Shown: positions 35,555 to 57,411 of the stretch, piece by piece
Position numbering within the stretch: the stretch's first letter is position 1
How the letters are laid out: every line of letters starts with the position of its first letter
DNA from: Pyrococcus kukulkanii
GTDB taxonomy: Archaea; Methanobacteriota_B; Thermococci; Thermococcales; Thermococcaceae
Reading direction: 5' to 3'
DNA: 64,000 nucleotides
Assembly: GCF_041647995.1 (NCBI RefSeq)
Contig: NZ_JARRIB010000003.1
Location: 124,001 to 188,000, forward strand
The notes under the pieces: generated by a model
Databases searched by the model: none
The model's input: only the letters and a program-made list of their open reading frames with translations
Told to the model about the DNA's origin: nothing
Program-made: the position numbers and the translations under genes

Positions 35555-38500
35555 TTATTTCTTGGAGAAGAAGTCTTCTAAGCTTATCACTTTCTTCTTC
35601 TTAGGCTTTTCTTTTGCTTTTTTCTCCTGCTTTTTGGTCTCTTTCCTTTCCTCATTTGATTTGAAGTTCTCCAAGAGCCCACCAGATTTAACGTGACCAG
35701 TCCTTGCCTTAACCATTTTCTGGCAAATATCGTTTGGATTCACCAAGAGTGTGAGCTGTGTCTCAGGGAATAGGTACTCAAAGAGAGAATCTATGTCTCT
35801 CTCAGTGAGGCATATCCTCTGTCTTGTATAGTCCTTAACGTTATATTCGGTAACGAGCATCTTAGCCGTTCCAAGGTACTTCTCTATTGCACCTTTGCTG
35901 ACAGTTAGAACTATCTTCCCCCCACATACGGGACACTTGCCACCCATAGGGGGCCTTCTAAACTTCGTGTTGCACTTAACACACCTAAACTCCTGCCTCG
36001 TGAAGCTCCTCAAGTTACCTCTCAAATCTGGAATTAAGTGAGAGTTGAGGATCGTTTCAGCTACATAGTGTTCATCTACCGCTCTTATTCTCTTAGCAAC
36101 CTCCAACTGCCTCCTAACTTTCTCCTCCATGTCTCCCAACTGTTTGTACAGGCTGAGCTTGGGGCCTAAAGCTATGTCATCCGTGTCGTGGGTAAACTTT
36201 ATCCCGTAGTACATTTCGGGCTTTCCTAGTCTATCTTCAACTCTTTCTATAACACCAACTAGCTCTTTTGGCGATTTAAGCTCGTAAGTTGCCTCATAGA
36301 ATTCGATGGGATAGTAGCGGACTATATCCATATTGTGTACTTCGCTGTCAACTTCCCTGGGGTCTAGACGAGTAGTAATTACAAGTGGAGCATCCATCTT
36401 TCCTCCTCTCTTCTCTGGGAGGTAGTAGCGGGAGAAGTTGAGGAGGGCATCTAGGAGTAGCATAACAGAATCCTCATCTCCGTCACAATTTGCAGTAGTA
36501 ATATTATTACTAATTACTACAGTATGATATTTTGATGCACTTAGCGAGTACACGAAATCCTCGGGTGGCTCCACATATTGAACCTTAGACACCTTAAGGA
36601 GGCTAACATCTCCAACTTGAATGTCCGACAATTCAGCTTCAAAAATAGGTATCAAATCACCCTCCCTAACCTCAAACGCCCTCTTCTTCACGAACTTTCC
36701 ATCCTCATACACCAAAACGAGGTGATCGGGAGTAGTTTCAAAGCTCCTCCCGAGTTCCAGCTCAAACCTTATCAGGTGATCCGTCGCTGGAGCCTTTATA
36801 ACGTCCTCAATGTCCGTCAGAACAACTTTTCCAGTTTCGGGATCGAGGGAATAAACCTTGATGTCGGCCTTAGGTTTCCTCTTAACGTACACCATGTTCT
36901 CATAACTCTCCCCATCGAAGAGCTCATACAACTCCTTCAAGGTTATCCTCGCTGGCTTTCCGTTTATCTGCACAAGTATTGTTGTGTCCCCAGGGAAGCA
37001 GTTTCTCCTCTTTGCGGCGTGGAAGTAGGGATGAGCGTAGCCAACTAAAGCGTCGACGAAGCCTATTATCCTACCCACAATTCCCGCGGAGGTGTGTGGG
37101 GCCAGACCTATGACGAGGTGGCCAATTAAGTCCTCCATCTTCTCGGCGTTGTAGAACCTCGGCAGACCATAGAACTTCTCAAGTAGGTCATCAACAAACC
37201 TAGCAACCTTCAGCAGGTACTTGCCGGCCTCCTTGGAGAGAATTATATCCTGGGGCTTGAGCTCGACTATCTGCTCTTCGCTAACTAGCGGCTTCCCCTC
37301 AAAGTCGTGGGTGTAACCGAGCTCCCTAAGCTTCTCAACACTGACACCTATTTCCCTGGGCCTGAAGTGAGTTATTGGAGCATCTGTAGCATCGAACCTT
37401 ATCGTTCCATCCTTGAACACGTAGACATCATTCTTAGCTCTCAACAAACCTTTCTCGAGTGGCTCGGCCATCTTCCAGCCTGATGTCATTCCCATGACGC
37501 CTTTCAGCTTGTCAATTCCGTAAACTTTCACGTTCTCCATAGCCCTGTTTAACAGCTCAGAAGGCTTGATCTTCCTCTTTGCGAAAGGTCTAAGCTTAAT
37601 GTTGCACTTTGGACACGTGTAATCATAACCCTGGGCTTGACTCTCCGGATATTCGGCGTTACACTTAGGACAGACCCATATCAGTTCTTTCCTAGTTCCG
37701 CAGTTTGGACAGAGGTGCTCGGGGCCAGTATGGCCACACTTTGGACACTTGAAAAATGCTATCTCAACTTCAGCAGTTTTACCTTCCTCGGCGGCCTTCT
37801 TTATATCTCTTGAAGAACCCCCAGCGAGGCCAATCGGAAATAGAACTTGAACAGGGGGTTTCATCTTTCTCTCCTTAGCCTTTTCGGGCCTCCCCATTCT
37901 TGCCCCAATCCAACTTATTCCCCTGTCCCTAAGCTTAATCTGGTTGTTCTCATTTATTATGTCAATTACCGTGAAGAGAGGCTTAGCCTTGAACTCCCAC
38001 TCCAAATTACCTAAAGGAGTTAGCAGGGCTGCAGCCCAGGGATAATCTACTATTACCTTGCCTTCCTTAACGATGTGTGGAAGGCCTAAGAGCTCAAGGT
38101 ACCTCTTTGCATAGCCAAGAACTTCCAGGGATATTTCAACCCTTCTCGCAAACTTTATCCCCCTAAAGCTGTCCCATTCAATTTCAGCATTCCCTTTGAG
38201 GATCCTCCAGAGCTCCTCAACTTCATGTGGCTTTAAAGTGTTCCAGTAGAGGGTGTAGTAAGGGTGGAGAGGTATCTCAAGTATCTCAGAGAAGTGAATG
38301 GCAAGCTCGACAGGCGGCTTAACCCTTAGGGGGTCGTACAACATCTTTGCAAGGAAGTCTGGATCAACCTCCAAGTATTCTGATGCTTCCTCGACAGCAT
38401 CCCTTGGATTCTCTTCAAATGGTTTTAGTTCAACCTCATAAACCTCATTAACTGCCTTAACGAACTCCTGAATCCACCACTCTTCAACGTAGTTTGCTGG

Positions 38501-39862
38501 TAGTAAGGTTTGATTGTTCTCGACGAAGTCTCCAAAGGCTATTATAGCGTCGCCCAAGTAAAGGATCTCCTCAACTTGATCCCTAATCTTAAGGGCCAGC
38601 TGATAATCATCAACCCTGAGGACGCTACCGTCCTTCAGCTTCACTATTGGCCCCTCAGCCGTAGTTGCAGGAGTCACAACCGCTCCCTTTCCCGGCCTTT
38701 CGGTTTTCATCTGCGTTCCTATCGCAAGGAACTCGTCAACGAGGATCATCGTTGCCGGATTTATGCTCCAAGTGGCAAAACCGCTAACCCTGCTCCTCCC
38801 ATAACGTAACCTAAAGCCACCATTTGCCGAGGGTTGTGAGAATAAGGGTCTTCCACCGATTATCTCCTTGGCGTACTTATCGCTCGGAGCTATCTCAGCT
38901 CTAAACCTCTCGTAGAGCTCGTAGTAGAAGCCCTTCTCAACCTTAACTTTAACTTCCTCAACGGCAGTTTCCTGGGCCTTCTCCTCCTTTTCCTCCTCTT
39001 TTGATTCACCTTTCTCCTTAGCCTCAACAAACTCTTTGAGCCAGTCCCACCCTTCAATGCCCATCTTATCTATGTACTTGACGAGCTTCTTGGCCTTCTG
39101 GAGAACACCCTCAGCCAGAACGAGAATGGCTCCACCCCTCAGCTGGTTCGTCTCAACCCCAGGAACATCCCTGTGAGAAACCTCAACGTCATCCGTAGCT
39201 TCGCCTGTAATCTCTATAGGAATGTTCTTCATTGCCAGCCTAACTTCCTCTGGGGAGGGATGGTACTGCAACCTAGTTACAGCCCTGTGGTAAAGGTCAA
39301 CTTCCTCAACCATCCTCTCTATGTGCTTTTCACTCGGCTTAAACCTGTCTAAGCCAAGCTTCCTCCTGACATAGTCACCAACGAGGACGCTCAAAGCCTG
39401 AGCGGTTCCACCGGAACTCCTTATGGGGCCAGCGTAGTACAAAGCCAGATACTCACTATTATCAGCCCAAGTGTTCCTCTTTATTTTAACATCAGCTATC
39501 CCTTCTATAGGAGCTGAAACTATTCCCTCGGTAAGTATCGCTAAAGCAGTCCTCACGGCCTGTTCAGCGTACTTCTCCTTACTCCCGAAGTCCCCAAATT
39601 TCCCCTCAATTATCTCGTCAACTATCTTCAATGCCGCAATCTCCTTACCATACTCCTTAACGAGCTCCCTAATTCTCTCAGCAACGCCAGGGGGACCAAC
39701 TAAGCTCTCAACTCTCCCAGCCATGTCGGTGGCTTGTGGTATCTCCACGTCAGTTGAGGGATCCTTACCCTGGGCCCTCGCCTTCTTCGCTATCTCATAG
39801 GCCCTATCGATCTCACGCTGAAGCATCTCGAAGTACTCCTTCATTTCCTGTGGAAGATCCAT
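35555..39862 (-). CDS. polD2: DNA polymerase D large subunit DP2 with one intein
   Basis: Catalytic subunit of the archaeal replicative polymerase D. A zinc-ribbon cluster ('FKCPKCGHTGPEHLCPNC', 'CPKCNAEYP', 'CPKCNIKLR') precedes the double-psi barrel core; the active-site loop 'RRN|CDGDEDS' is split by a 171 aa intein. A second zinc finger ('CVKCNTKFRRPP...CPVC') follows. The C-terminal 'KKVISLEDFFSKK' is a PIP box-like PCNA anchor. The ATG at 39862 overlaps the DP1 stop and has GGTGGTG upstream. The mature protein is about 1264 aa. Confidence 0.97.
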   Translation of the reverse strand: MDLPQEMKEYFEMLQREIDRAYEIAKKARAQGKDPSTDVEIPQATDMAGRVESLVGPPGVAERIRELVKEYGKEIAALKIVDEIIEGKFGDFGSKEKYAEQAVRTALAILTEGIVSAPIEGIADVKIKRNTWADNSEYLALYYAGPIRSSGGTAQALSVLVGDYVRRKLGLDRFKPSEKHIERMVEEVDLYHRAVTRLQYHPSPEEVRLAMKNIPIEITGEATDDVEVSHRDVPGVETNQLRGGAILVLAEGVLQKAKKLVKYIDKMGIEGWDWLKEFVEAKEKGESKEEEKEEKAQETAVEEVKVKVEKGFYYELYERFRAEIAPSDKYAKEIIGGRPLFSQPSANGGFRLRYGRSRVSGFATWSINPATMILVDEFLAIGTQMKTERPGKGAVVTPATTAEGPIVKLKDGSVLRVDDYQLALKIRDQVEEILYLGDAIIAFGDFVENNQTLLPANYVEEWWIQEFVKAVNEVYEVELKPFEENPRDAVEEASEYLEVDPDFLAKMLYDPLRVKPPVELAIHFSEILEIPLHPYYTLYWNTLKPHEVEELWRILKGNAEIEWDSFRGIKFARRVEISLEVLGYAKRYLELLGLPHIVKEGKVIVDYPWAAALLTPLGNLEWEFKAKPLFTVIDIINENNQIKLRDRGISWIGARMGRPEKAKERKMKPPVQVLFPIGLAGGSSRDIKKAAEEGKTAEVEIAFFKCPKCGHTGPEHLCPNCGTRKELIWVCPKCNAEYPESQAQGYDYTCPKCNIKLRPFAKRKIKPSELLNRAMENVKVYGIDKLKGVMGMTSGWKMAEPLEKGLLRAKNDVYVFKDGTIRFDATDAPITHFRPREIGVSVEKLRELGYTHDFEGKPLVSEEQIVELKPQDIILSKEAGKYLLKVARFVDDLLEKFYGLPRFYNAEKMEDLIGHLVIGLAPHTSAGIVGRIIGFVDALVGYAHPYFHAAKRRNCFPGDTTILVQINGKPARITLKELYELFDGESYENMVYVKRKPKADIKVYSLDPETGKVVLTDIEDVIKAPATDHLIRFELELGRSFETTPDHLVLVYEDGKFVKKRAFEVREGDLIPIFEAELSDIQVGDVSLLKVSKVQYVEPPEDFVYSLSASKYHTVVISNNITTANCDGDEDSVMLLLDALLNFSRYYLPEKRGGKMDAPLVITTRLDPREVDSEVHNMDIVRYYPIEFYEATYELKSPKELVGVIERVEDRLGKPEMYYGIKFTHDTDDIALGPKLSLYKQLGDMEEKVRRQLEVAKRIRAVDEHYVAETILNSHLIPDLRGNLRSFTRQEFRCVKCNTKFRRPPMGGKCPVCGGKIVLTVSKGAIEKYLGTAKMLVTEYNVKDYTRQRICLTERDIDSLFEYLFPETQLTLLVNPNDICQKMVKARTGHVKSGGLLENFKSNEERKETKKQEKKAKEKPKKKKVISLEDFFSKK
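36488..37000 (-). other. DP2 mini-intein at the catalytic aspartate loop
   Basis: It extends from Cys (TGC, 37000-36998) to Asn (36490-36488), 171 residues, with Cys as +1 residue before the GDED motif. Block A 'CFPGDTTILVQINGK' and block B 'TTPDHLVLV' are normal. The usual penultimate His is replaced by Ala ('NITTAN|C'). There is no LAGLIDADG domain, so it is a mini-intein that must splice without a homing enzyme. Confidence 0.92.
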
Positions 39863-41853
39863 CAGCACCACCTGCTAAAGTCAAGAACTTTCACAACCTT
39901 CGCACTCTCAACATCTACAACGGGAACCTTTCCTGGGGTGGGGACTATGTTCACCATCTTCTGGAACTCGGTCTGTGCCTGCCAAGTCGCGGAGTTAACG
40001 AGTTGAATCCCCCTGTAAACCACGGCATCATACACGTGAACGTGGCCCATCTGAACCAAATCCGGAACTTCCTCTATAACGAGCAGATCTTCAGGGTCTG
40101 GAGCTATGGGAACCTTTCCGCCGAAGGTTGGAGCAAGATGCCTCATCTTCAGCAATTCAACCATCGGCAGGCCCGGCTTGTGATGGGTTAGCCCAGGGAC
40201 GAAAGAAACTACATCCTCAATTCCCCTCCCGTGGGCTATTAGGAAGTCCCTGCCGTGTAGCCTTATCACCGCAGGATTGCTTATGATTACAGCGTTCTTT
40301 AGTTTGTAGATAGGTTTAGCATACTCCTCGTAAAACTCTGGTTGAGGTATCGCGGGCCTTGCGGCATCGTGGTTTCCTGGGCCGATAAACATTGTTATGT
40401 GCTTGGGAACGTTTGCGAGGAGGTTTGCCAAGGCCTCGTACTGGTCGAATATATCAGGGATTATGAGGTCTGAGTACTGGCCAGGGTAAACACCTATGCC
40501 ATCCACAACGTCACCGGCTATTATGAGGTACTTGACCCTACTAACTATTTCCTCCTCTTCCTTGGTTTCAACGTAACCATTCAGCCACTCCAAGAACTTC
40601 ATGAAGGCCTTCTCACAGAACTCCTTGCTACCAACGTGGATATCGCTTATGAGTATGGCATAGACCTTCTCTTCCAGTGGAGGTTTCTGCTTCCTGTAGA
40701 GCGGGACATCCGGGAGGTAGAATTTATTAGCGAAGAATATGCCCTTCTTTGAATAGAATCCCTTGAATGCAACGACTGCATCTGGGAGAACTTTAAAGGC
40801 ATCGCGGTAGTCTTCAGAGTCTTTGGGCAGGAACACCTTAACTCTTCCAGTTTGATCCTCAATCTCAAATATCAAACCTTTGTTCGTCTCTCTTTTGTCG
40901 TTGACGAGGCCTATTATAGTTACCTCCTCATCCCCCTTAACGTACCTCAACTTAGCTATATCCACCACGGTCTTTATTTCCGGATTTTCCCTGAGTATCC
41001 TCCTCAACTTTTTTAGCCTACTCCTGAAGAGGGAGGCGTAGGCCTCCACTATTATCTCGCCCTCTTTTCCGTTAGCATTCTTGGCCTTTGGAGGCTTCAG
41101 CTTCACGTGCCTCACGTCGAATTTAACCTCATAGTCGGGCTCTATTTGAGCATATGTAAAGTTGGGATTTGGCTCAATGGTGAAGCCTTCATAAATAGAA
41201 TACTCCTTCTTCTCGGTTATTTCTTCTGGACCATAGACCATGGGGAGGCCGTATTTTGTGAGCACAACAGTTTCACCGTTATTATTCTCCTCCCCATTTC
41301 CATTAGAAAGGAGCTCTTGCTGCTCTTCAATTACACCAAAAACGTCTTCAGGAACTTCAAATTCTTGGGCCTCATTTCCAGTGGAAATAGAACTCTCCCT
41401 TTCAGAAATTTCCTCTATGATACCCTCTTCTGAGACAACAGAGGATGATGACGACAGTGTTTCACTAGAGGTTCCAGTGGAAATATAACTCTCCCCGGCT
41501 GAAACATTTTCTTCAGCCATTTTAACTTCTTCTACGATTTCAGCCGAGAATTGTTCTTTTTCTTGAGTTCCCTCAGTAATTATTTGTTCCTCATGAGATT
41601 CAGGTGTTGTCTGCTCGATTTTTCCAGTGGAAATGTAACCCACCTTTTCTTCCACTGGAGCCTCGAGACCCCTCACCTTCAAGAACTCACTCGCAATTGC
41701 ATCATCAATTATGAAAGTCCCCCGAGACTTTGCAAACTTTATCAGTTCCGCTAACGAGAACTCTCCCCGCCTAAAATGCTCGACGAGGATGTAATAGGCT
41801 GCAGGGGTTAAGAGGTAATTGTTCTTAATTAGGCTCCTAACAAACTCATCCAT
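39862..41853 (-). CDS. polD1: DNA polymerase D small subunit DP1
   Basis: Proofreading 3'-5' exonuclease subunit (Mre11-like). The phosphoesterase motifs are 'ISDIHVGS', 'AGDVVDG', 'IGPGNHDAAR', 'AHGRGIED' and 'MGHVHVYD'. An OB domain precedes them ('TIIGLVNDKRETNKGLIFEIED'). The N-terminal helical domain is joined by an acidic, low-complexity linker (about residues 70-200) in which the peptide ISTG recurs three times because the DNA there carries mini-ORB boxes. At 663 aa it is longer than the roughly 610-620 aa I recall for relatives. ATG 41853 overlaps the cdc6 stop; a TTG precedes it. Confidence 0.96.
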   Translation of the reverse strand: MDEFVRSLIKNNYLLTPAAYYILVEHFRRGEFSLAELIKFAKSRGTFIIDDAIASEFLKVRGLEAPVEEKVGYISTGKIEQTTPESHEEQIITEGTQEKEQFSAEIVEEVKMAEENVSAGESYISTGTSSETLSSSSSVVSEEGIIEEISERESSISTGNEAQEFEVPEDVFGVIEEQQELLSNGNGEENNNGETVVLTKYGLPMVYGPEEITEKKEYSIYEGFTIEPNPNFTYAQIEPDYEVKFDVRHVKLKPPKAKNANGKEGEIIVEAYASLFRSRLKKLRRILRENPEIKTVVDIAKLRYVKGDEEVTIIGLVNDKRETNKGLIFEIEDQTGRVKVFLPKDSEDYRDAFKVLPDAVVAFKGFYSKKGIFFANKFYLPDVPLYRKQKPPLEEKVYAILISDIHVGSKEFCEKAFMKFLEWLNGYVETKEEEEIVSRVKYLIIAGDVVDGIGVYPGQYSDLIIPDIFDQYEALANLLANVPKHITMFIGPGNHDAARPAIPQPEFYEEYAKPIYKLKNAVIISNPAVIRLHGRDFLIAHGRGIEDVVSFVPGLTHHKPGLPMVELLKMRHLAPTFGGKVPIAPDPEDLLVIEEVPDLVQMGHVHVYDAVVYRGIQLVNSATWQAQTEFQKMVNIVPTPGKVPVVDVESAKVVKVLDFSRWC
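41292..41660. repeat. Mini-ORB boxes inside the DP1 coding region
   Basis: TTCCAGTGGAAAT occurs at 41376-41388, 41472-41484 and 41622-41634, all in one direction and all in one DP1 frame (encoding ISTG). Degenerate forms are near 41296-41308 (encoding LSNG) and, inverted, at 41650-41660. The 13 bp word is identical to the core of the full origin boxes at 43575 and 43874, so Orc1/Cdc6 may bind here. Confidence 0.85.
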
Positions 41854-43112
41854 CAAACCAGCCTCCGCTGCTCGCTTTTAAGAGAAATTGCCAAGAGGGG
41901 CTGTATTGTGTAGTCGTACCTAAACACATTCCTTATCTTATATGGAGTAACGTTGAGCCTTATCTCTTTTGTCCTACCGTACCTCCCCTTACTTACGACT
42001 TTCGCATTAATTATGCCGAGCATGTCAAGCTCGTTTATGAGATCGCTTATCCTCCTCTGGGTGAGGGGCTCGAGGTCTATGTACTCGCACAGATCCCTGT
42101 AAACGGAATAAACTTCACCCGTATTCGCCGGCAAATCCCCATTCTCATCCAGAAGGACTATTGCATACAAGAGAACCTTGGACTGGAGAGGCAGAGTTTT
42201 TATTACCTCCTCCATCATGTCCTGCTCTATCTTCTCCTGGGCCTTCCATACGTGGCTCTCGGTTACCTTATCAGCACCTTCCCTTTCAGCGATCTCCCCA
42301 GCCACCCTCAACAGGTCAAGGGCCTTTCTAGCGTCCCCATGCTCTCTCGCGGCTAAAGCAGCACATAATGGGATTACACCCTCGTCTAGAACCCCAGGAT
42401 AAAAGGCCTCTTCAGCCCTCTGCATGAGGATATCCCTAAGCTGATTGGCATCGTACGGCGGGAAGACGACCTCCTCCTCGCTCAAGCTCGAGAGAACCCT
42501 TGGGTCAAGGTACTCCTTGAACTTCAGGTCGTTTGATATCCCTATAACGCTAACCTTAGCCCTCTTAAGCTCGGTGTTTATCCTCGTTAGGGAGTAGAGA
42601 ACTTCATCTCCGCTCTTCTTCACGAGCTTATCTATCTCGTCAAGGACTATTATCACGAACCTCTCCTTCATGTCTATTACCTGCTTGAGCTTCGCGTAGA
42701 CCTCATCTGTAGGCCATCCAACTAAGGGGACTTCTATCCCCGTTTCGTGCTTGAAGTGGTTAACGATGTTGGCGAGAACTCTGTAATGGGTGTCAGTAAT
42801 TTCACAGTTGATGTAGATAACATCCACGGGAATGTTGTACTTCTTAGATATCTTCTTCAACTCCTCAGTGACGAACTTTACCGTTACAGTCTTTCCGGTT
42901 CCGGTCTTGCCATACACGAAGATATTTGAGGGAGTTTCACCCCTTAGGACAGGAACCAAGATTTGAGCAAGGGTCTCTATCTGCTCGTGCCTGTGGGGTA
43001 GATCCTTGGGAGTATAGCTATGCCTAAGCACCTCCTTGTTCTTGAATATTTTCCTTGCCTTGAGCAACTTCTCAAAGAGCTTATCAAGGTGCAACTGCTC
43101 ACCTCTGTCCAT
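41853..43112 (-). CDS. cdc6: Orc1/Cdc6 origin-recognition protein
   Basis: AAA+ initiator that binds ORB boxes and loads MCM. Walker A is GKTGTGKTV, Walker B 'FVIIVLDEID', the sensor region 'VIGISNDL' and the C-terminal winged helix ('YSVYRDLCEYIDLEPLTQRRISDLINELDMLG') are visible. ATG 43112 follows GGAGGGTCATTG; the TTG at 43115 is an alternative. It is directly adjacent to oriC and shares a tail-to-head overlap with DP1, forming the cdc6-polD1-polD2 operon. Confidence 0.97.
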   Translation of the reverse strand: MDRGEQLHLDKLFEKLLKARKIFKNKEVLRHSYTPKDLPHRHEQIETLAQILVPVLRGETPSNIFVYGKTGTGKTVTVKFVTEELKKISKKYNIPVDVIYINCEITDTHYRVLANIVNHFKHETGIEVPLVGWPTDEVYAKLKQVIDMKERFVIIVLDEIDKLVKKSGDEVLYSLTRINTELKRAKVSVIGISNDLKFKEYLDPRVLSSLSEEEVVFPPYDANQLRDILMQRAEEAFYPGVLDEGVIPLCAALAAREHGDARKALDLLRVAGEIAEREGADKVTESHVWKAQEKIEQDMMEEVIKTLPLQSKVLLYAIVLLDENGDLPANTGEVYSVYRDLCEYIDLEPLTQRRISDLINELDMLGIINAKVVSKGRYGRTKEIRLNVTPYKIRNVFRYDYTIQPLLAISLKSEQRRLV

Positions 43113-43121
43113 CAATGACCC

Positions 43122-43289
43122 TCCATTGGAAATTATGCTTTTTTAATGACATGTCCTTTATTTCCAGTGGAAATGAAACTCATTTTGTTAACTGACTTTA
43201 AATAAGCGTGACATTAAGGTATGATTTTCAAGTGGAATCATCACACTAGGGACATCATTTCCACAGGAAGCACACGAACCAGTGGAAAG
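43122..43289. repeat. Mini-ORB cluster in the cdc6 leader
   Basis: A perfect copy TTCCAGTGGAAATGAAACT lies at 43162-43180. Weaker versions are at 43122-43133 (TCCATTGGAAAT), 43227-43239, 43257-43269 (inverted, ATTTCCACAGGAA) and 43277-43289 (AACCAGTGGAAAG). The cluster abuts the cdc6 start, consistent with initiator autoregulation. Confidence 0.75.
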
Positions 43290-43453
43290 CAACGGTTATC
43301 TTTCACTCAGAGTTTTTATGCTTTGCTTATACATGATGATGTCAAAATTAATATTGAAATATTTCTCATATGAAAAGCTTTCACAAGAAATTCCTTAGAA
43401 CCCCCAAGATGCTCCACGAGACATGGTTTACAAAGACCAATGCACACAAAAAT

Positions 43454-43466
43454 TTCCTGTGGAAAT
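43454..43466 (+). repeat. Mini-ORB variant
   Basis: TTCCTGTGGAAAT differs from the core box by one base and lies between the cdc6-proximal cluster and the first full ORB. Confidence 0.6.
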
Positions 43467-43574
43467 CCAATGAACAAATTTGCACATAAAAATTTAGGCG
43501 TTATTAACCATTTTTGTCCAATTTTGTTAAGCATATTCGATTAAAAGTTCAGCTAAAGTTAAACGGAAGTGAAA

Positions 43575-43601
43575 CCCCCCAGAGTTTCATTTCCACTGGA
43601 A
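43575..43601 (-). repeat. Full ORB 1 (G-run outward)
   Basis: Reads on the minus strand as TTCCAGTGGAAATGAAACTC followed by a T and a G-run. It is the mirror copy of the box at 43874-43899, so two initiator molecules would face each other across the AT-rich element. Confidence 0.92.
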
Positions 43602-43873
43602 CTCGCGGGCAAACACCTAGAATAATTAAATTTTTATCCAGTACAAACACTCTCCCATATTAGCTCGATTTCCTATTTAAATAATTTTCTCTGAACATTT
43701 TATAAGTGAAATCATGCTTTTCATGAAAAAATAAATAGTTTAAATGTTCAAAAATGTGCATTAAATGAACAAACGTTTGTTGACAAACGTAAAGATAACA
43801 CGGGTCATATATTGTAAGTTTGTAAATATCTGAGCCCTCAAGAAAATTTTTGTTGGGTACTTCCCCAGAGAAG

Positions 43874-43899
43874 TTCCAGTGGAAATGAAACTCTGGGGG
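43874..43899 (+). repeat. Full ORB 2 (G-run outward)
   Basis: Plus-strand copy of the long ORB, ending in GGGGG about 25 nt from the mtnP stop. It is identical to ORB 1 over about 26 bases. Confidence 0.92.
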
Positions 43900-43922
43900 T
43901 TTTAAGATAAAAATAGAAACGT

Positions 43923-44696
43923 TCAGACAAAGGCCGTCTTTAAGACGTCAGCACATCCGCACTTCCTCTCCTCAGGTATCTTTGGAATTGCCTTCCTGAG
44001 GAGCCTCTGCACCTTTTCTTCATTCTCTTTCATAACCCTAAGAACTTCCTGAGCATCTACCGGCTTCTCAGCCCAAACGTCGTAGTCGGTGACAGTTGAA
44101 ATGTTAACGTAGCACATCCCTAACTCTCTCGCGAGGTTTACCTCTGGAACGAGGGTCATCCCTATGACGTCAGCAAACTGCCTGAACATCCTTGATTCTG
44201 CCCTCGTTGAGAACCTTGGTCCTTCAATGCATATGTACGTTCCCTTTTCGTGCACTGGTAGGTTTAGCTCCTTTGCCGTCTCTATGAATATCCTCCTGAG
44301 TTCTGGGCAGAAGGGATCGGCCATGCTTATATGAGCAACCTTTGGGCCGTTGTAGAAGGTGTACTCCCTCTTCTTCGTGAAGTCTATGAACTGGTCAATT
44401 ATCACGATGTCCCCAGGCTTGTACTCCTCCTTAAGGGAGCCGACTGCATTAATTCCTATTACCCTCTTAACCCCGAGTTCCTTGAGGGCCCATATGTTTG
44501 CGCGGTAGGGAACTTCATGTGGGGGGAACTCGTGGTACTTCCCGTGCCTTGGGATGAATGCAACTTCAACTCCCTCTATCTCCCCTATTTCCACTGGAGC
44601 TGAAGGCCTTCCATATGGGGTGTGCACCTTCACGGTTTCCTTGGGCTCGAAGACTCCATAAACACCAGAACCGCCTATTATTCCTACCTTGGGCAT
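43923..44696 (-). CDS. mtnP: 5'-methylthioadenosine phosphorylase
   Basis: Cleaves methylthioadenosine with phosphate to adenine and methylthioribose phosphate. The PNP/MTAP family motifs '[10 protein letters not shown]', '[23 protein letters not shown]', '[20 protein letters not shown]' and 'STVTDYDVW' are present. The C-terminal 'KCGCAD' pair is the CxC disulfide known from hyperthermophilic relatives. ATG 44696 has GGTGGTTG upstream. A degenerate mini-ORB (44588-44600) lies in its 5' coding region. Confidence 0.95.
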
Positions 44697-44744
44697 GGCA
44701 ACCACCGTTTAGATTGATCTCATTGTGCATATAAGAGTTGCTTT

Positions 44745-44758
44745 TCCAGTGGAAATTG
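44745..44758 (+). repeat. Mini-ORB upstream of mtnP
   Basis: TTCCAGTGGAAATT is a perfect 13 bp core copy in the mtnP promoter region, the outermost perfect box on this side of the origin. Confidence 0.75.
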
Positions 44759-44850: not shown

Positions 44851-45948
44851 TTAGATATTATAAACATCCCTATCTTGAAGTTCGAGAATTGCTTTTCTCA
44901 GTGGTTTTTCGGGGATTTGATAAATTCCTCTCTTTGGTTTTATTAGTAAGCCCCCATCGACGAGGTTCCTCAGCACGCTTTTTGCCCTCCTCTCTGAGAT
45001 CCCAGTAAGCGAGGTAACCTCTGCAAGTATCTCCTCAGTGGTAACGCCAAAAGAAGGCCCTTTTGCAACCTTTTTTAGTGCAACAACATATGCAGGGGAC
45101 TTATAAATCCTGATAAAGTTTCTAACATCCAGCTTCCACAACTTCACAGCATATTCTACTGTTGCAAGTAGTGCTTTATCATGGGGCTCTCCATTAACCC
45201 TGAGCCTGCCGTAATAGGCCAAAAAGCCGGGAACGTTTGAAAGCTCTGTTGCAGCCTCAACTAGTTCATCCTCGGTGTATCCTATTTTCGCAAGCCCTCT
45301 CTTGAGGTACTCTACACTCTCCTCAAGCTTCCACCGTGAAACGTGTATCTTCTCGACATACCTCGCAAAGAAGGGTTTATCTTCGCTTGGGTTCAGTATC
45401 CTTTCAAGTAGTCCGGGCATCGAGCCAGAAAGAACTACCGTTACATTCTCGAATCCATCAGAAATTGTTTGGAGCATGCCGAGCATGTTTAAAGGCGCAA
45501 ATCGGGGAAGCACTTGGGCTTCATCGAATATAATGACGACCTTCTCTCCCCTTTTATTTAGGAACCTGAGTAAATTAAGGAATGCATTTTGAAATTCTAC
45601 AACTTTCCTGGGCCTTATGTCCATCCTAACTATTCCGAGGCTTAGCGTTGCAGAGTAGTCAAGGTCTTCTTCAGAGATGTTACTCATGACTGGTACGAGC
45701 TCCGTGTAGCTTATCGCCTCCTGACCCATTCCAAATGCCAGATCATAATAGAGGTACTTGTATTTTGAACCGTACTTATTAAGGAAGACATTTATTACGC
45801 TTGTTTTCCCAACCCTTCTCGGACCAAGAATTGCGGCAAAGTCCCCCTCCTCTACAGCTTTGTTAAGCTTTCTTACCGCTTCCCTATGTCTCCTCCCAAA
45901 CAGGTCTTTCTCATTTCTTATAGGTCTCGTGCTGAACAAAGTGAACAC
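44851..45948 (-). CDS. Archaeal AAA ATPase (COG1672 type) with C-terminal winged helix
   Basis: Walker A is GPRRVGKTS, Walker B 'VVIIFDEAQV' and sensor 'VVLSGSMPGL' are clear. A helical lid follows and the C-terminus is a winged helix ('TEEILAEVTSLTGISERRAKSVLRNLVDGGLL'). GTG 45948 is the favoured start: the family usually begins near 'LFSTRP', and a TATA (GTTTTAAAATG, about 45980-45970) puts transcription start at about 45951, making it leaderless. Longer frames from 46038 lack support. First gene of the accessory island. Confidence 0.75.
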   Translation of the reverse strand: MFTLFSTRPIRNEKDLFGRRHREAVRKLNKAVEEGDFAAILGPRRVGKTSVINVFLNKYGSKYKYLYYDLAFGMGQEAISYTELVPVMSNISEEDLDYSATLSLGIVRMDIRPRKVVEFQNAFLNLLRFLNKRGEKVVIIFDEAQVLPRFAPLNMLGMLQTISDGFENVTVVLSGSMPGLLERILNPSEDKPFFARYVEKIHVSRWKLEESVEYLKRGLAKIGYTEDELVEAATELSNVPGFLAYYGRLRVNGEPHDKALLATVEYAVKLWKLDVRNFIRIYKSPAYVVALKKVAKGPSFGVTTEEILAEVTSLTGISERRAKSVLRNLVDGGLLIKPKRGIYQIPEKPLRKAILELQDRDVYNI

Positions 45949-45967
45949 CCCATCACTAGTGATGGGG
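45948..45967. promoter_or_regulatory. Perfect 20 bp palindrome at the ATPase start
   Basis: CCCCATCACTAGTGATGGGG is a perfect palindrome overlapping the predicted transcription and translation start of the ATPase gene. It is placed as a repressor site. The neighbouring gene product with its own winged helix is a candidate binder. Confidence 0.6.
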
Positions 45968-46100
45968 CGACATTTTAAAACTTTCTGTAAACAATGAATA
46001 TATGCTTCATGGGTTTCTTTCCTAGTACCTTGGTCCATATCTTTGAATAGTTCATTAATTCTCTCGCTTACTGTCCTTTGGGTGGCTGTGGTTTACATTG

Positions 46101-46577
46101 TCATTTCAAGGAAAGCTCCTCTATGAACTCTTTTGCCCTGAGTATTTTGACCTTTCTTCCATTAAAGCTGTACGTTTTAGTTTTCCTGTCCCTTATCTGG
46201 ATGATATGCTTTGTGTTTTCTGAGATAATGTACTCAGCGTTGGCGGAATACGCAACGTCGAAAAATTTTGCATCATCTGGATCCTTTAGCTTTTCAAGAA
46301 ATTCGTGATTATTGGAAAACTTGGGCTTTGGACTGATAATAGTGCTTTTCCTCTTTACCAAGGTAAGTATCTGGAGGGCCAGAAGTTCCTTTTCTGTTCC
46401 TCCAGCTATCTCCATGAGAACTCGGCTCATCTCTTCGTATATATCCCTGCTGAGGTAATTCTCTACTTTCCCTGTAACGAGGGCCCTTAAAATTCTCCAC
46501 GCTGGAGAACGTTGAGGATTTCTAGATTTAAGCGCACTAACCAAGATAGATGTATCAAGGACTACTCTTATTGCCAT
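46101..46577 (-). CDS. PIN-domain toxin (COG1569-like)
   Basis: A 158 aa predicted ribonuclease with the PIN acidic residues: Asp in 'VVLDTSILVSAL', Glu in 'IYEEMSRVL', and 'DPDDAKFFDVAYSANAEYIISENT'. It would be the toxin of a type II module, cleaving RNA. The ATG lies 1 nt after the stop of the upstream small gene, which is the candidate antitoxin. Confidence 0.78.
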   Translation of the reverse strand: MAIRVVLDTSILVSALKSRNPQRSPAWRILRALVTGKVENYLSRDIYEEMSRVLMEIAGGTEKELLALQILTLVKRKSTIISPKPKFSNNHEFLEKLKDPDDAKFFDVAYSANAEYIISENTKHIIQIRDRKTKTYSFNGRKVKILRAKEFIEELSLK

Positions 46578-46928
46578 TTAAATCACTCCAACATGCTTTA
46601 GCTTGTTCTCGATCCTCTTGAATTTCCTGATATTTCTCCTTGCTTCAATCAAAAGTTCCTCTGTACTCTTGTGAATTTCAGGAGTGCTTTCGGCCTCCTT
46701 AACTGCAAGCTCAAAAAGATCCTCTGGTGATAGATCCTCTGTAGATTTTTCAAGCTCTTCAAGTTTCTTATCCCATTCCTTCCTTTTTCTCAACTCTTCA
46801 AAGAACCATATTATGTCTTCTGGCCTCTCATGGATCTTCTTTGCTAGTTGGACTATCCACTCACTCACTGCCTCTTGTGTCTCCCGCCTTTGAAAAAGCC
46901 TAATAACCTTTTCAACGTCAGATGCCAC
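46578..46928 (-). CDS. Putative antitoxin partner of the PIN toxin
   Basis: A 116 aa, charged, mostly helical protein without a clear domain. The N-terminus 'VASDVEKVIRLFQRRETQEAVSEWIVQLAKK' could be a small helix-turn-helix. GTG 46928 is preceded by GAGGGGT; longer starts are possible. Its position directly ahead of the toxin is the main evidence for the antitoxin role. Confidence 0.6.
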   Translation of the reverse strand: MASDVEKVIRLFQRRETQEAVSEWIVQLAKKIHERPEDIIWFFEELRKRKEWDKKLEELEKSTEDLSPEDLFELAVKEAESTPEIHKSTEELLIEARRNIRKFKRIENKLKHVGVI

Positions 46929-47485
46929 GAGCTTACCCCTCAATTGCACTATTTAAAAAGAGATATAAAATTGTTTCTTGTTCCAAAGTTCCTGAAATAT
47001 GCTGGTTTGATATTTTTCTGTCAGTCTAAGCTAATCATTTATATCTTGCTAGCAAGTCAACATAGCATTTCAAAAGCTTGTGAAGATCGAGAGGGCTGGT
47101 CCTATGTTGGGATCGATACAGGTTGGGGCAATGCTAAATCCATTAGCTTTTTCATTAAGATTGCGTAAGCTATTTATTCCAAAAAAATACCTTAAAGAGA
47201 ATTAGGTGAAAAATGCCAACCGAAATTACTATGGAGGATCTTCCAGCGAGATGATAGCTAGAATGAATAAGCGAGAATTAAATAAGCTAATTAGAGAACT
47301 TATTCTTGAGTCTGAAGCTTCAGTTTGAAGTTAGCCGTGGTTTTGATGTTTCCTTAGCTCCAAAAGAAAACAAATCCAAGAAATCTGTGAGATAATAGAA
47401 GAAAAGTAGAACTTTAGGTCTTGAGTACATTAATTATTATGGGAATATCCGAAGTCATGGTTTCATACCACGTGGGAGGCCATAG
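46929..47485. other. Non-coding/degenerate interval
   Basis: A minus-strand promoter (TATA-like ATTTTATATC near 46968) serves the antitoxin gene. A GTG-started plus-strand frame of 41 codons (47080-47205) and short frames near 47213-47320 resemble scraps of older genes but lack ribosome binding sites and recognisable domains. I see no intact gene. Confidence 0.4.
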
Positions 47486-48745
47486 TTATTTAAGGTTGGC
47501 CCAGCTTTTTATGAGGTTAAGTTTGTCTTTAGAAAAGGCCTTGTTCATTTTTTTGGCGGCTTTTCGGTAGATAGGGAGGGGCATTTCATAGTATGTTATG
47601 TTCTTTGTCTTATGTTCTTTAAGAATACCTTGGTCGAGTAGCGTTTGAATGAGATTATCTGTAAGTTTCTCATTAAGTTTTATTGGGCTATTTTTTTATT
47701 TTTGAAGCAGTGAACAATAGTGGCTTGCCATTTTTTCTTCACTCATCACTTTGTAAGCTCTTGCTATTTTTCGTGAGAGTGTATCAGAAATTTTTATCTT
47801 GATGCCGTCTGCGAGGGTCTTAGCAACGGCAAACATGGCAATATGTTGGAGCTCCTCTTTGGCAATTTCAATCATGTTTATTTCAAGTTTGCTTTTCTCT
47901 GAGAATATTTCTCCAACTTTATTAATCTTTTGGCAGTATTTTAATAACGCCCTTGGTATTCCACTAATTTCCATTATGGCACCTTTAACAAGTTCCTTAA
48001 ATTCATCATCTTTGAGTTTCTGCTTAGAGATAACCCCTTTTTGTGCGAGACACATTAAAAGCAACTCTGTTGACTTTTCGGGAGAAAGTGGAGAGACATT
48101 AATAACTTTCACTTCTCCAAGGAAAGCTTGTTTTAGAGCTTTCATTTCAAATAAGTTTGTTGCACTTGCAACTGATCCGCTAATAATAAACCAAGGCATT
48201 TCTTTTGGATCTTCAAGGGTTTGGATAACTGTTCTTAAAATCTTTGCAAATTTCGTTATTAGAGGTCCTAAGCATTGTACCTCATCAAAAAAGATCCTTG
48301 TCTTAGGTTTTAAAGACAGGAGAACATCCTCCAGTGTTAAACTTTCACACATTTTTCTGACGGTGGTTTTTTGATATCCTTTTATAAGTTTTGAAAAAAG
48401 TCCTGGAATTACCTTGAATGCTCCTCCAATTTCCCCCTCAGTTCTTGTGGATTCAATAATTTGAATAACCTTTCCATAAAGAGGAGAGGAATGTTTAATT
48501 AAATTATGAGTTAGTGCTTGTGTGCAGATTTTTGTGGCAATTTCTTGAAACACTTTATTCTCGGTTTCGTAATTAATGTTTGTTTTTTCTTCAAGTCCAA
48601 ATTTTTCAAGGTCTATCTAAATTTGTGTGTTGGGATCAATGCTATTAAGGGCCTTGTATAGATCATTAAATTCTTTATCTCGGCCAATAAGACACTCCTT
48701 TTTGTAGCTGAATTTATTGAGAGAATAATCACATGCACTTGCCAT
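47486..48745 (-). pseudogene. COG1672-type AAA ATPase, P-loop lost and two stops
   Basis: Reading one frame on the minus strand from ATG 48745 (AGGTGA upstream) gives 'LIGRDKEFNDLYKALNSIDPNTQI', a TAG, then the ATPase core 'TRIFFDEVQCLG' (Walker B), 'WFIISGSVASATNL' (sensor) and, after an in-frame TAA at 47696-47698, a winged-helix tail ('LNEKLTDNLIQTLLDQGIL'). The Walker A region that should follow 'NSIDPNTQI' is missing. Both stops keep frame, so decay by substitution and a deletion is likely. Confidence 0.7.
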
Positions 48746-49251
48746 AATGTCACCTGGGGTAATGACCCACCTTAGTATTATTTAAAGATTTTAGCCTCTA
48801 ATGTTAACTAAATATCAAATTTCCAAAAAATTTTTGGGATAACATTCAAAAATTATTAAAAAATTTGATAATTTTACATTGATTTTTACTACTTTGAAAC
48901 CGGAATTTTTGGGGAATTATCTTAACGTATTTAACGGAATAACTCAAGAGTTTATTAGTTCGGGCCATATTATGTTGTTATAATGGCTTCTCCATAGAAA
49001 TGGTCGGTAGGACAGCTTATATAAAAGCATACCTCAGCGAGTGGTCTAAGTTTTCAGATGCTATTTTTGATATTTGGTGAAATGTCAAAAATTTATTAAC
49101 AATTAATACATAACGACGACAAAGTAGGGGAGCTACTTGAGTTCCTGTAGAATGAGGAATAATTTAACGATGTGGAATGATGTATTTCGAGTTTGAGGGC
49201 TTGATTGAATATTTCTCCTTCCTAAGGACTTGAGCTTCCTCTCACCAACCT
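48746..49251. other. AT-rich interval with promoters
   Basis: About 500 nt, strongly A/T-rich. It holds the ATPase pseudogene promoter (CTTTAAATAATAC on the minus strand near 48787) and an imperfect dyad TGGGT-CATT-ACCCCA at 48756-48770. A plus-strand TATA-like CTTATATAAAAG lies near 49017. No coding frame is supported. Confidence 0.4.
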
Positions 49252-49632
49252 TCAATCCAGAAATTGGCTGGGTGTCTTGTAAACCTCTGAAAATGCTTTC
49301 CTTGATTCAGAGACTATCATCCTCAACCTTTCAGACATGTCTTGGAGATCTTTTATTTCCTTTCCTTCTTTTGACAACATCTCATCGAGATTATCTTTCA
49401 CTGAAAGCTTCCTTACCAAAATTGAAAAATTTGGGATATTTACTTTATATTCCCCTATGTAAGCCTGTAGAATAGCCCTATCAAAATTTGACAACGAATC
49501 AATATTGTATTCCTCTGTATCTTGAAATGGTTCTATTCCAAGCAATCTTCTGGGCCAGCTTCTCATATGACGGCCCCAAGTCCTCGAATATCTGCTATAT
49601 TTAGGAGAAAATCTATACTGGTAATCTTCCAT
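49252..49632 (-). CDS. Hypothetical helical protein
   Basis: 126 aa, unrecognised. An Arg/Tyr-rich N-terminus is followed by a helical segment. The last part ('ERLRMIVSESRKAFSEVY') resembles a stretch of the large coiled-coil protein at 54088 ('LRKIVRESGEAFHQIH'), suggesting a common domain. It could be a partial gene. It is divergent from the decayed transglutaminase-like gene with 25 nt between them. Confidence 0.4.
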   Translation of the reverse strand: MEDYQYRFSPKYSRYSRTWGRHMRSWPRRLLGIEPFQDTEEYNIDSLSNFDRAILQAYIGEYKVNIPNFSILVRKLSVKDNLDEMLSKEGKEIKDLQDMSERLRMIVSESRKAFSEVYKTPSQFLD

Positions 49633-49657
49633 AAAATTTATGCTGTTTTCTTTAAAT

Positions 49658-50276
49658 ATGATAATTCAGCTTTTTCTTAGAATTCCTGAGGAAGATGTGG
49701 ACTTGTCTATTGCCAATAATTATCACGAGAAGATCAAAAAAGTTGATGAAGACCTCTTCCTGATAAAAGTTCGGGATACTCCTAAGAAGATAATTGAACT
49801 TCTTGAAAGACCGTTGGATTTCAAGATTACCTTGCCGGAACTCGAGGGAGTGAAACATTTAATCGAAACTTACGAGGATCTATTTATCTTTTTGAAAGAT
49901 TACATTGACGCTAAGGTTAAAAACGAGCATTCTCGGGGGAGACTCTCCATTCTGGGAATATTACAATCCGAGATGGGACAACCAATGTGGAATTCGAAAC
50001 AAGATGTTCGCGAAATATCTCAAGGATCTCGGACTTGAAGTCCGGATGATTGGAGGCATATTTTTGACTAATCTCGATAAAACCCCGAGAAGTGTGGAGG
50101 CGACTCACGCATGGGTTGAGGTTAAAATAAATGACAAATGGGTTGAACTGGATGCTTCGGGAAAACCTGTATCCCACTTGCTGCGTCGTTCGACTGAACT
50201 CTCTTGAGAGGTGGGATAGATTCGAGAGATTACTGGCTGAAAGGGAAAGTTTTCGCGGAGATACTGTAAAATAATT
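49658..50276 (+). pseudogene. Transglutaminase-like gene, frameshifted
   Basis: The frame opens from ATG 49658 ('MIIQLFLRIPEEDV') and shifts near 49915-49935. The second frame holds a transglutaminase-like core: Cys in 'WDNQCGIRNKMFAKYLKDLG', His in 'EATHAWVEVKI' and Asp in 'KWVELDASG'. After a stop at 50205-50207 another frame continues ('RGGIDSRDYWLKGKVFAEIL'). All three catalytic residues survive but the frame does not. Confidence 0.6.
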
Positions 50277-50339
50277 TCATTCTTGTACAACGTCGAAAAG
50301 AAAGATAATTATTAGCTATTGAAAGCAATTTCAAGTTAT

Positions 50340-50597
50340 ATGGCGGAGGAGTCCGTTTACAGGGCACTTAACATCGGGCTCGGATACTCTTCTCGAGAGT
50401 TCTATCCCGAGCTAAACATTGATATCATAGGGTATCTTTCCATAGCTCCAAGTCTGAAGAGTCCCTCGAGCATCGACAACAATTTATCCAACTTAGAGAG
50501 AATTTTGAGGGAAATTAGTGATACAGATTTTCTGAAAGCGAAGTTTAGGAGTGCAGGATATGAGTGGTGGTTCTATGATGGCTGTGATGATGAGTAA
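50340..50597 (+). CDS. Hypothetical short protein, probably remnant
   Basis: An 85-codon frame from ATG 50340 ('MAEESVYRALNIGLGYSSRE') without a ribosome binding site. No family recognised. It lies between two degenerate transglutaminase-like segments and may belong to the same decayed gene set. Confidence 0.3.
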   Translation: MAEESVYRALNIGLGYSSREFYPELNIDIIGYLSIAPSLKSPSSIDNNLSNLERILREISDTDFLKAKFRSAGYEWWFYDGCDDE

Positions 50598-51012
50598 ATT
50601 TTTGTCCCTCAGAAAATATACTCGCCCGAATCCTGAATTTATTTCTTATCTTCGAGAGAACTATGATAAAGTAGATCTGAAATCTATTTGGAGGATTATC
50701 AGCTCCGAATTCTCTTATGATTCGGATATTGCGCATTGTGACAAAATTTACTCTGCTTCTGAGTTAATGAAAGCCCGGAAAAGAGGAGGATGCTCTTCAT
50801 ATTCAATTCTCTCTTCATCTATTTTGAGATCTTTTGGCTATCCTACAGCGATTCTCGTTTGTTTATAGCTTGATACGATATTTTACAACGAGGAATTTGT
50901 CAACAAAATGGCTCATAAGCTTGGGGAGGAACACTTAGAAAAGATTAAGAGGAAATGTTTTATTGGCGGGCTATGTGCTATTAAGACGGTTCGATATTTA
51001 GTTTTTCCATAA
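50587..51012 (+). pseudogene. Second transglutaminase-like fragment
   Basis: 'RKRGGCSSYSILSSSILRSFGYPTAIL' matches the Cys-centred core helix of transglutaminase-like enzymes. An in-frame TAG at 50866-50868 interrupts the frame, which continues to 51012 ('FYNEEFVNKMAHKLGEEHLEKI'). The downstream His/Asp residues of the triad are not found. Decayed. Confidence 0.5.
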
Positions 51013-51091
51013 AAATATATTTTATTTAATGGTATTGCCTCAAAATAATCTTTATACTTAGAAATATAGTATACAAAAGTCATAGCTTAGC

Positions 51092-51340
51092 TTATATGTA
51101 GTACTCTCTTACTATTCCAAAGCGCCTTTCGACTTCTCTATCAAACCAATAGCCACTCCCATAACGTATATACCTATTTGGATCCAGCCCATAATTTTCT
51201 TTTAATCTCCTACAAGTGGCATTCCATAATTGTTTTCTTGCATCCCAAACGTCCATATCATCTGATAAGAACTTCCATTTGTCTAAGACCTTATATAGGT
51301 TATACAGCTCAGTACCTCTATATGAATCAATATCTATCAA
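51092..51340 (-). CDS. Small conserved-looking protein downstream of phosphotransferase
   Basis: 82 aa, unrecognised; rich in Tyr, Trp, Arg and Asp ('NYGLDPNRYIRYGSGYWFDREVERRFG'). Its start overlaps the stop of the PEP-synthase-like gene by 4 nt, a sign of translational coupling. It could be a partner or acceptor of that enzyme. Confidence 0.55.
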   Translation of the reverse strand: MIDIDSYRGTELYNLYKVLDKWKFLSDDMDVWDARKQLWNATCRRLKENYGLDPNRYIRYGSGYWFDREVERRFGIVREYYI

Positions 51341-53040: not shown

Positions 53041-53363
53041 CCCAAATAATTGGATTTTATGTATATAAGCTTATTTAAGCCCTCTTTGATATCACCTTCT
53101 AAGTCTCGTAGCTTATCTTCAAACTCCTTCTTTAGAGAAGAGATTTCCTTCCTTATTTTCTTGACATCTCTTTCTTCCTCCTTTATCTCCTTATCAAGAT
53201 ACTTTGCATCCTTCTTAAGAGCTTTTACTTCATGATATGCTCTCCCAATGACTCTCTCTGCTTTTATAGATACTCTCCCTACTCCTATAGCTCCATAATA
53301 CAACAGTGCAATCATATTTCCCACAAAGAATCCCCAGAATAGACTCTGAACGCTAAGGGACAT
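53007..53363 (-). CDS. Membrane coiled-coil protein, short paralogue of the 606 aa protein
   Basis: Sequence from 'MSLSVQSLFWGFFVGNMIALLYYG' aligns residue for residue with residues ~64-130 of the product at 54088 ('MPFSVQSLFWGFFAGNMIALLYYG'), followed by a Glu/Lys coiled coil; it ends after about 118 aa. The start is unsure: ATG 53363 with a TATA-like CTTAAACT at the right distance, or an earlier frame from 53429. Its 3' end overlaps the phosphotransferase start by 34 nt. Confidence 0.6.
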   Translation of the reverse strand: MSLSVQSLFWGFFVGNMIALLYYGAIGVGRVSIKAERVIGRAYHEVKALKKDAKYLDKEIKEEERDVKKIRKEISSLKKEFEDKLRDLEGDIKEGLNKLIYIKSNYLGCPALLKSLGI

Positions 53364-53412
53364 GTTTGCCAGAATAGTAAAGTTTAAGATATTACTACTC
53401 CATAATAATAAC

Positions 53413-54084: not shown

Positions 54085-54087
54085 TTT

Positions 54088-55908: not shown

Positions 55909-55931
55909 TCCTATTATTTCTCCCCCGGTGG

Positions 55932-56030
55932 TTATTTACTTTTCCTTCGAAGAATCGAGACGAAGAATCCCTTAACCATAACTCTCAAGAACGATAGGAA
56001 ACCGTGGAAAAAGAGCTCGGAGAATCCCAT
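55932..56030 (-). CDS. Possible small amphipathic peptide
   Basis: A 32 aa frame ('MGFSELFFHGFLSFLRVM') ending just ahead of the coiled-coil gene. It is hydrophobic with a basic end ('RRKSK'). No good ribosome binding site. Listed only because position and composition are consistent; it may be chance. Confidence 0.2.
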   Translation of the reverse strand: MGFSELFFHGFLSFLRVMVKGFFVSILRRKSK

Positions 56031-56157
56031 AATACTACTCAACGCCGAAGAGAAGAAAGAGAAAGAGCTCTGATTTTAGCTTTATCCACGAGTTATGCCA
56101 TCTAACGTGAAAAAGTTTGATGAAATGGTAAGAGATTAGCGGAAGGGCTCTCTAAGC

Positions 56158-56700: not shown

Positions 56701-56719
56701 AACCTAGTTAAACAAAAGC

Positions 56720-57351: not shown

Positions 57352-57411
57352 CTTACATTCACTAAGTTAGTCTTACCAACAGAGCATAAAAATATTTTCA
57401 ACTCAGCATAT

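Follow-up and report, generated by a model that had tools for sequence, protein, structure and literature searches.

Organization of the ORB locus

The window, that is, the whole 64-kb stretch of DNA analysed, carries two full ORBs that face each other between two genes of the same direction, orc1/cdc6 and a phosphorylase gene (Table 1). Leftward from the pair, and all on the minus strand, follow orc1/cdc6, dp1, and the putative dp2, with 467 bp between the ORB1 core and the orc1 start codon. The arms are inverted, of 32 nt each, 97% (31/32) complementary, and separated by 268 nt. The original prediction had described two inverted ORBs, identical over about 26 bases, with about 270 nt of AT-rich DNA between them, and on both points it was borne out, the arms being somewhat longer than proposed. 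In terms of composition, the 268 bp between the arms showed 69.4% AT compared with 56.2% for the window, and the least stable 120 bp of this middle fell within the top 0.17% of the 64 kb, three other places of the window being less stable.

Table 1. Position and basis of assignment of the features found at the locus (window coordinates).
Feature	Position	Strand	Basis
ORB1, 32-nt full box, C-string on outer side	43572..43603	+	sequence match
ORB2, inverted copy facing ORB1, 31/32 complementary	43872..43903	-	sequence match
AT-rich inter-ORB stretch, presumed duplex-unwinding element	43604..43871		69.4% AT; minimum stability in the 120 bp starting at 43622
Third full 20-bp ORB core (20/20 bases), 47-66 bp upstream of orc1 start codon	43162..43181	-	core search
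Mini-ORB	43257..43271		sequence match
Mini-ORB	43452..43466		sequence match
ORB within dp1 CDS, encodes ISTG, 2 mismatches	41376..41395	-	core search
ORB within dp1 CDS, encodes ISTG, 2 mismatches, 96 bp from 41376 box	41472..41491	-	core search
ORB within dp1 CDS, encodes ISTG, 2 mismatches	41622..41641	-	core search
ORB-like box directly upstream of phosphorylase gene	44735..44754	+	44742-44756, 1 mismatch to 15-bp palindrome
Weak mini-box inside phosphorylase gene, encodes PVEI, 2 mismatches	44587..44601		sequence match
orc1/cdc6 initiator gene, 420 aa; AAA+, Cdc6 lid, C-terminal winged helix	41853..43115	-	domain search (Cdc6_C, Cdc6_lid)
dp1, DNA polymerase D small subunit, 664 aa	39862..41856	-	ORF, domain search, PDB relatives
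Putative dp2 (large subunit of DNA polymerase D), 1438 aa	35555..39871	-	position, by eye
PNP_UDP_1 phosphorylase, by eye methylthioadenosine phosphorylase; stop codon borders ORB2	43923..44705	-	domain search

Allowing up to three mismatches, the 20-bp core TTCCAGTGGAAATGAAACTC was matched seven times in the 2.05-Mb genome (nine contigs), always inside a 3.4-kb part of the window (41376-44754); the reversed control pattern had no match in the same search. Similarly, the 12-mer TTCCASWGGAAA, with up to one mismatch, had 30 matches in the window, whereas 100 shuffles averaged 2.6 and did not exceed 7. A chance repeat was ruled out by these genome-wide core counts and 12-mer shuffles, and, given the 32-nt arms, the seven local cores against no reversed ones, and the unstable AT-rich middle, the ORBs are real and far from a chance observation.

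Mini-boxes had also been proposed to extend outward as far as 43122 and 44758. This stood for the boxes at 43257-43271 and 43452-43466 and, with one mismatch, for that at 44742-44756, but the element at 43162-43181 proved to be a full core, that at 44587-44601 has two mismatches, and the one near 43122 is weak, as judged by eye. In addition, this third full core upstream of orc1 and the three cores inside dp1 (41376, 41472, and 41622), two of which match a looser consensus exactly and one with a single mismatch, had gone unmentioned. An exact core at the place matching 44735-44754 was found in five of the eight loci of the window's genus, and none of these eight loci has one inside the phosphorylase gene. 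A further near-exact mini-box (G000 C1:45582), inside a NuoI-like gene, was taken for chance.

Beyond the boxes, the putative gene for the PolD large subunit (35555-39871) may contain a short intein, apparent by eye. On the other side, the phosphorylase and PAC2 genes, which are direct neighbours in five or more other Pyrococcus loci (L120-L124), are separated in the window by ~13 kb (44851-58467) of partly low GC (0.36 at 46-54 kb), with an ATPase_2 gene (Pfam) at one end, a similar-looking one (by eye) at the other, and a PIN_3 gene; this segment has the appearance of an inserted island flanking the origin. No Rfam match was detected in the 39-61 kb region.

Conservation of the pair and nucleotide skew

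An orc1 match was detected in 90 of the 94 family genomes searched, the window's genome included, and origin regions from 72 of them (71 relatives and the window) were analysed, those left out lying mostly on short contigs. In the search for facing pairs, at 240-320 bp from start to start, the eight orc1 loci of genus g4 were replaced by 11 g4 loci found by their ORB pattern, giving 75 loci. The pair was present in 73 of them, and the two misses corresponded to G002, whose stretch is cut at the contig start, and to G083, a contig of 3.8 kb. Spacing ranged from 273 to 293 bp in all eight loci of the window's genus and from 270 to 286 bp in the 65 loci of other genera, and the AT content of the middle was above that of the locus in 73/73 cases. 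As a control, up to four mismatches were allowed in both boxes together, which gave facing pairs at 240-320 bp in 73/75 loci and back-to-back pairs in 0/75; in the remaining bins of 80 bp, which covered 80-1040 bp, facing boxes were present in at most 19 loci and back-to-back boxes in at most 21. Because 73 of the 75 loci share it, and other bins and the other orientation are far less populated, the spacing has to be regarded as a trait of the family. Thus, of the two features claimed as specific to this genome, box number and spacing, only the former can be kept, as the number does vary and the spacing of 270-293 bp is common property.

Genera g3 and g5 are presumably those holding T. kodakarensis and T. 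barophilus, respectively or jointly. Compared with the window, Thermococcus origins have the same facing pair, at 270-286 bp in 47 g3 loci and 271-274 bp in six g5 loci, but differ in a further ORB located 40-90 bp past ORB2 (38/47 g3 and 6/6 g5 loci, as well as the single g6 locus; L118-L188), found in none of the eight loci of the window's genus nor in the one g2 locus, and in a longer distance from orc1 to ORB1, with a median of ~1.15 kb in g3 against 0.47 kb in the window's genus.

Skew was followed on the window's contig, one of the nine of its genome, and sampled about every 100 kb in relatives (every 98 kb in G005). On the former (gaps at 120-124 and 188-190 kb), the excess of GGGT over ACCC declines, reaching -180 at the pair; to the right of the pair the curve is flat, between -168 and -210 and with no rise, up to 390 kb (>200 kb). 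In the single-contig genome G005, with the pair at 254 kb, the sampled cumulative GGGT minimum lies between 206 and 304 kb, and a symmetric two-arm score has its best value, 306, at 195-205 kb and reaches 278 at the pair, the best value being equalled in 0 of 2000 shuffles. GGGT skew gave a cleaner signal than plain GC skew. The expectation that skew would mark this origin was, then, supported by the change of GGGT slope at the window pair and by a G005 minimum that brackets the pair, but the flat right arm, as well as the plain GC minimum of G005, sampled between 304 and 402 kb, did not follow it. An inflection of oligomer skew, as used to recognise oriC in Pyrococcus/Thermococcales, is therefore present, with a flat right arm and on one contig of nine.

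Other sequence features by which such origins are recognised were also found, namely the adjacent orc1/cdc6, at least two full inverted ORBs, AT-rich DNA between them, and an ORB cluster in dp1. The original assignment of the layout to the known Pyrococcus origins is thus upheld by the adjacent initiator gene, the gene of the PolD small subunit, the facing ORBs, the unstable AT-rich middle, and the skew, and the window origin is of a known kind, a Pyrococcus-type oriC. Taken as a whole, the stretch is best explained as the chromosomal replication origin of a Pyrococcus, the genus being indicated by the PDB relatives of dp1; we consider this explanation very probable. In P. furiosus, the ORB pair flanks the melting region. 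The oriC of P. abyssi and P. furiosus resembles the window in its intergenic ORBs beside orc1/cdc6 and other replication genes (available excerpts of PMC4010727) and in its dp1 ORBs, reported for four Thermococcales (PMC2643942, in excerpt); small differences in spacing and mini-box number exist among the eight loci of the window's genus. Furthermore, marker-frequency peaks in stationary phase were placed at the ORB intergenic region of T. kodakarensis, P. furiosus, and T. barophilus, according to the accessible part of PMC11005403.

Boxes inside dp1 and the separated ORB pair of genus g4

The dp1 genes of 72 genomes contained 132 exact cores, compared with 0.6 expected under synonymous shuffling, in which proteins were kept fixed and codons redrawn from local usage; no copy of the reversed control word was seen in dp1, and in orc1 itself, across the 64 non-g4 genomes, there were four exact cores. 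These 132 dp1 cores occupy two reading frames, 100 of them producing ISTG-type peptides and 32 LPVE/VPLE-type ones, and 56 of the 78 successive core pairs are separated by a step of 96 bp (32 codons). Among the 64 non-g4 genomes, 141 of the 148 [IV]S[TS]G peptides of the dp1 linker are encoded as RTTTCCASTGGA, each codon of which has a usage of only 11-41% elsewhere in dp1. An exact dp1 core is present in 59 of these 64 genomes and absent from five (G001, G002, G006, G045, and G068); in G045, dp1 lacks RTTTCCASTGGA as well as the looser form of the core, although the pair is near orc1. This bias in codons and frame points to selection of the dp1 boxes at the DNA level. ChIP of Orc1 at the dp1 cluster was reportedly part of the work of Matsunaga in 2007. 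The presence of an ORB and mini-ORBs in the dp1 of four Thermococcales had already been described, with Matsunaga 2007 as its source, in the available text of PMC2643942. What appears to be new is the evidence, drawn from sequence comparison, which suggests that satellite boxes are selected as DNA and track their closeness to the pair.

Regarding this closeness, dp1 and the pair lie within one stretch of at most ~7.5 kb in 63 of the 64 non-g4 loci. In g4, the ORB pattern lies ~395, 511, 619, 349, and 511 kb from orc1 in the five single-contig genomes (G073, G075, G077, G078, and G080, respectively), and the two elements are on different contigs in the six drafts where both were found; for drafts G081 and G082, no ORB was present among the matches listed. 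A loss of ORBs from g4 was considered and rejected, as the whole-genome pattern search found them elsewhere in these genomes. At the eight g4 orc1 loci, a k-mer search for an altered box was negative at five, and at the other three it picked up the ordinary core, weakly. Far from orc1, the g4 pair keeps its AT-rich middle and a spacing of 271-273 bp, next to neighbours common to other genera (RadA, an ion channel, and a gene coding for 206 aa; L209-L219), and its distance to trpS, 20-30 kb in the three g4 genomes examined, is like that in several g3 genomes. Since the pair keeps the neighbours of other genera, it seems that the orc1-PolD operon left and the origin stayed. A literature search, which was short of several likely papers, found no earlier account of this separation.

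The dp1 of g4 showed neither the core (0/8 genomes) nor ISTG-type peptides (0/8). By contrast, a PIN-domain gene next but one to the g4 pair, with its near edge 858-864 bp away (10/10 g4 loci), contains exact cores in 11/11 g4 loci, and its orthologues outside g4 (13 found among 18 genomes) have cores in 0/13. The g4 genomes do not count as independent trials because the separation was probably one evolutionary event. In view of these data, the idea that the dp1 repeats are an ISTG protein motif required by PolD, for instance for partner binding, with their likeness to ORBs being secondary, is hardly tenable: the one frame with 100 of the 132 exact cores and the recurrent 32-codon step would agree with it, but the shuffling excess, the almost fixed codons, and the 32 copies that encode LPVE or VPLE in another frame led us to reject it, as do the lack of such peptides from the first 330 residues of the eight g4 proteins, where dp1 is far from the pair, and the same DNA boxes in an unrelated gene close to the g4 pair.

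Sampled skew favours the pair over orc1 in two g4 genomes, weakly in one of them. In G078, the pair scores 367 and orc1 109; the best value (371), which 0.55% of shuffles reach, falls at 45-55 kb, on the other side of the contig end relative to the pair. In G077, it is 167 at the pair, which is also the best, against -9 at orc1, with 7% of shuffles equalling it, so it is weak alone. The plain cumulative minima, at 10-107 kb in G078 and 787-898 kb in G077, are ~70-190 kb from the respective pairs, at 1784 and 975 kb.

Two further observations concern this genus. In some of its genomes a core has been retained ~150-160 bp ahead of orc1 (L153, L154, L160, and L167), which would fit Orc1 controlling its own gene. 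Also, the RadA of one g4 locus (L216:3274-5316) contains an Intein_splicing domain.

Proposed roles of the origin, its satellites, and ORBs elsewhere

In the mechanism inferred from the literature, the Orc1/Cdc6 produced by the adjacent gene would bind both facing ORBs, whose core ends point towards each other, the AT-rich stretch separating them would melt, and one MCM helicase would be loaded per direction. More Orc1 would be bound by the additional boxes in dp1 and ahead of orc1. Such satellite boxes would be DNA signals retained owing to their nearness to the origin, and the ISTG and LPVE-type peptides of the PolD linker would be by-products of them. That this additional Orc1 binding builds up initiator at the origin seems the most likely role for the satellites, and one that we hold to be reasonably probable. 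Bacterial oriC offers a parallel, with its DnaA boxes, datA titration, and dnaA autoregulation: there too, the initiator gene lies beside the origin and initiator boxes are found upstream of this gene and in neighbouring DNA, although these boxes are unrelated to ORBs and the likeness to the window is one of box positions.

It is also possible, if rather doubtful, that the satellites of dp1 and those upstream of orc1 and of the phosphorylase gene would not help but act as a titration sink limiting initiation, by analogy with datA, the titration locus for DnaA. Satellites are retained in most genomes at varying distances from the pair, as such a sink would allow. Moreover, in Haloarcula hispanica, a downstream ORB cluster has been suggested to regulate oriC2 negatively (PMC4010727, in the part available). 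However, a titration sink needs no nearness, so the closeness of dp1 and pair in nearly all non-g4 loci, together with the absence of dp1 boxes where the two are unlinked, counts against it.

Less likely still is an origin that is present but little used, with recombination-dependent replication doing most of the work. The origin was described as dispensable in T. kodakarensis, where cells without cdc6 and origin grow normally (excerpts of PMC5663688), and in T. barophilus, in which the use of oriC depends on growth phase (excerpts of PMC11005403); against this, the skew change at the window pair and the G005 minimum around the pair imply long use. It is because two Thermococcus species live without their origin, as stated in those same excerpts, that the comparison made here matters: boxes are held in two frames of an essential polymerase gene, are absent when this gene is far, and are present in another gene near the origin that has moved apart, and therefore the origin appears to be under continuing selection.

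Finally, that the facing pair is not a replication origin at all but a site of transcription control for orc1, and for the phosphorylase gene, seems most improbable. A core does lie 47-66 bp from the orc1 start codon, ten-base cores occur within 260 bp upstream of orc1 in 49 of the 72 genomes, including five of the eight g4 genomes with the pair elsewhere, and g3 ORB copies are also found directly upstream of other genes; nevertheless, the g4 pair and its AT-rich middle persist at their spacing far from orc1, the sampled g4 skew fits the pair better than orc1, and the marker-frequency peaks of relatives fall at the matching place (PMC11005403, in excerpt).

Returning to the pair as origin, we lean, by little, towards considering satellite ORBs as a portable, DNA-level part of the Thermococcales origin, such that genes near the facing pair would acquire coding Orc1 boxes and lose them after separation. 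In g4, the initiator-PolD operon would have left and the replicator stayed with radA and trpS, dp1 losing its boxes and the PIN-domain gene gaining them, and the g3 ORBs at trpS, tRNA-Ala(CGC), and tpiA would suggest Orc1 action away from the origin.

These boxes away from the origin are to be taken as leads, their numbers being raw counts and lower bounds, with trpS as the one place looked up by protein. In genus g3, as well as in G001, an ORB lies directly upstream of trpS (L195:2989-3040; L254-L256, L261-L263, and L266-L269). By pattern, this site was detected in 31 of the 61 g3 genomes and in G001, a count that is biased because the pattern contains the ORB. When trpS was located by protein in 28 genomes, an exact core was found directly upstream in nine of 12 g3 genomes, all 12 taken from the 30 that fail the pattern and one of them having no trpS match, and in one of two g2 genomes; no upstream core was found in the g1 (0/7), g5 (0/3), g4 (0/3), or g6 (0/1) genomes.

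In addition, in g3 genomes the tRNA-Ala(CGC) gene has an ORB at 82-83 bp from its 5' end (L189-L193, around 3001), with a core at most one base from the consensus in these five loci and kept where the gene on the other side differs; by exact pattern, it was detected in 14 of the 94 genomes. A box like that at 44735-44754 of the window is present in at least 12 g3 genomes, its position beside the phosphorylase gene being confirmed in G017 only. Lastly, an ORB-like box was found upstream of the triose-phosphate isomerase gene in at least two g3 genomes (L194:2988-3030 and L197:2998-3030), ~12 and 28 kb from the ORB pair.
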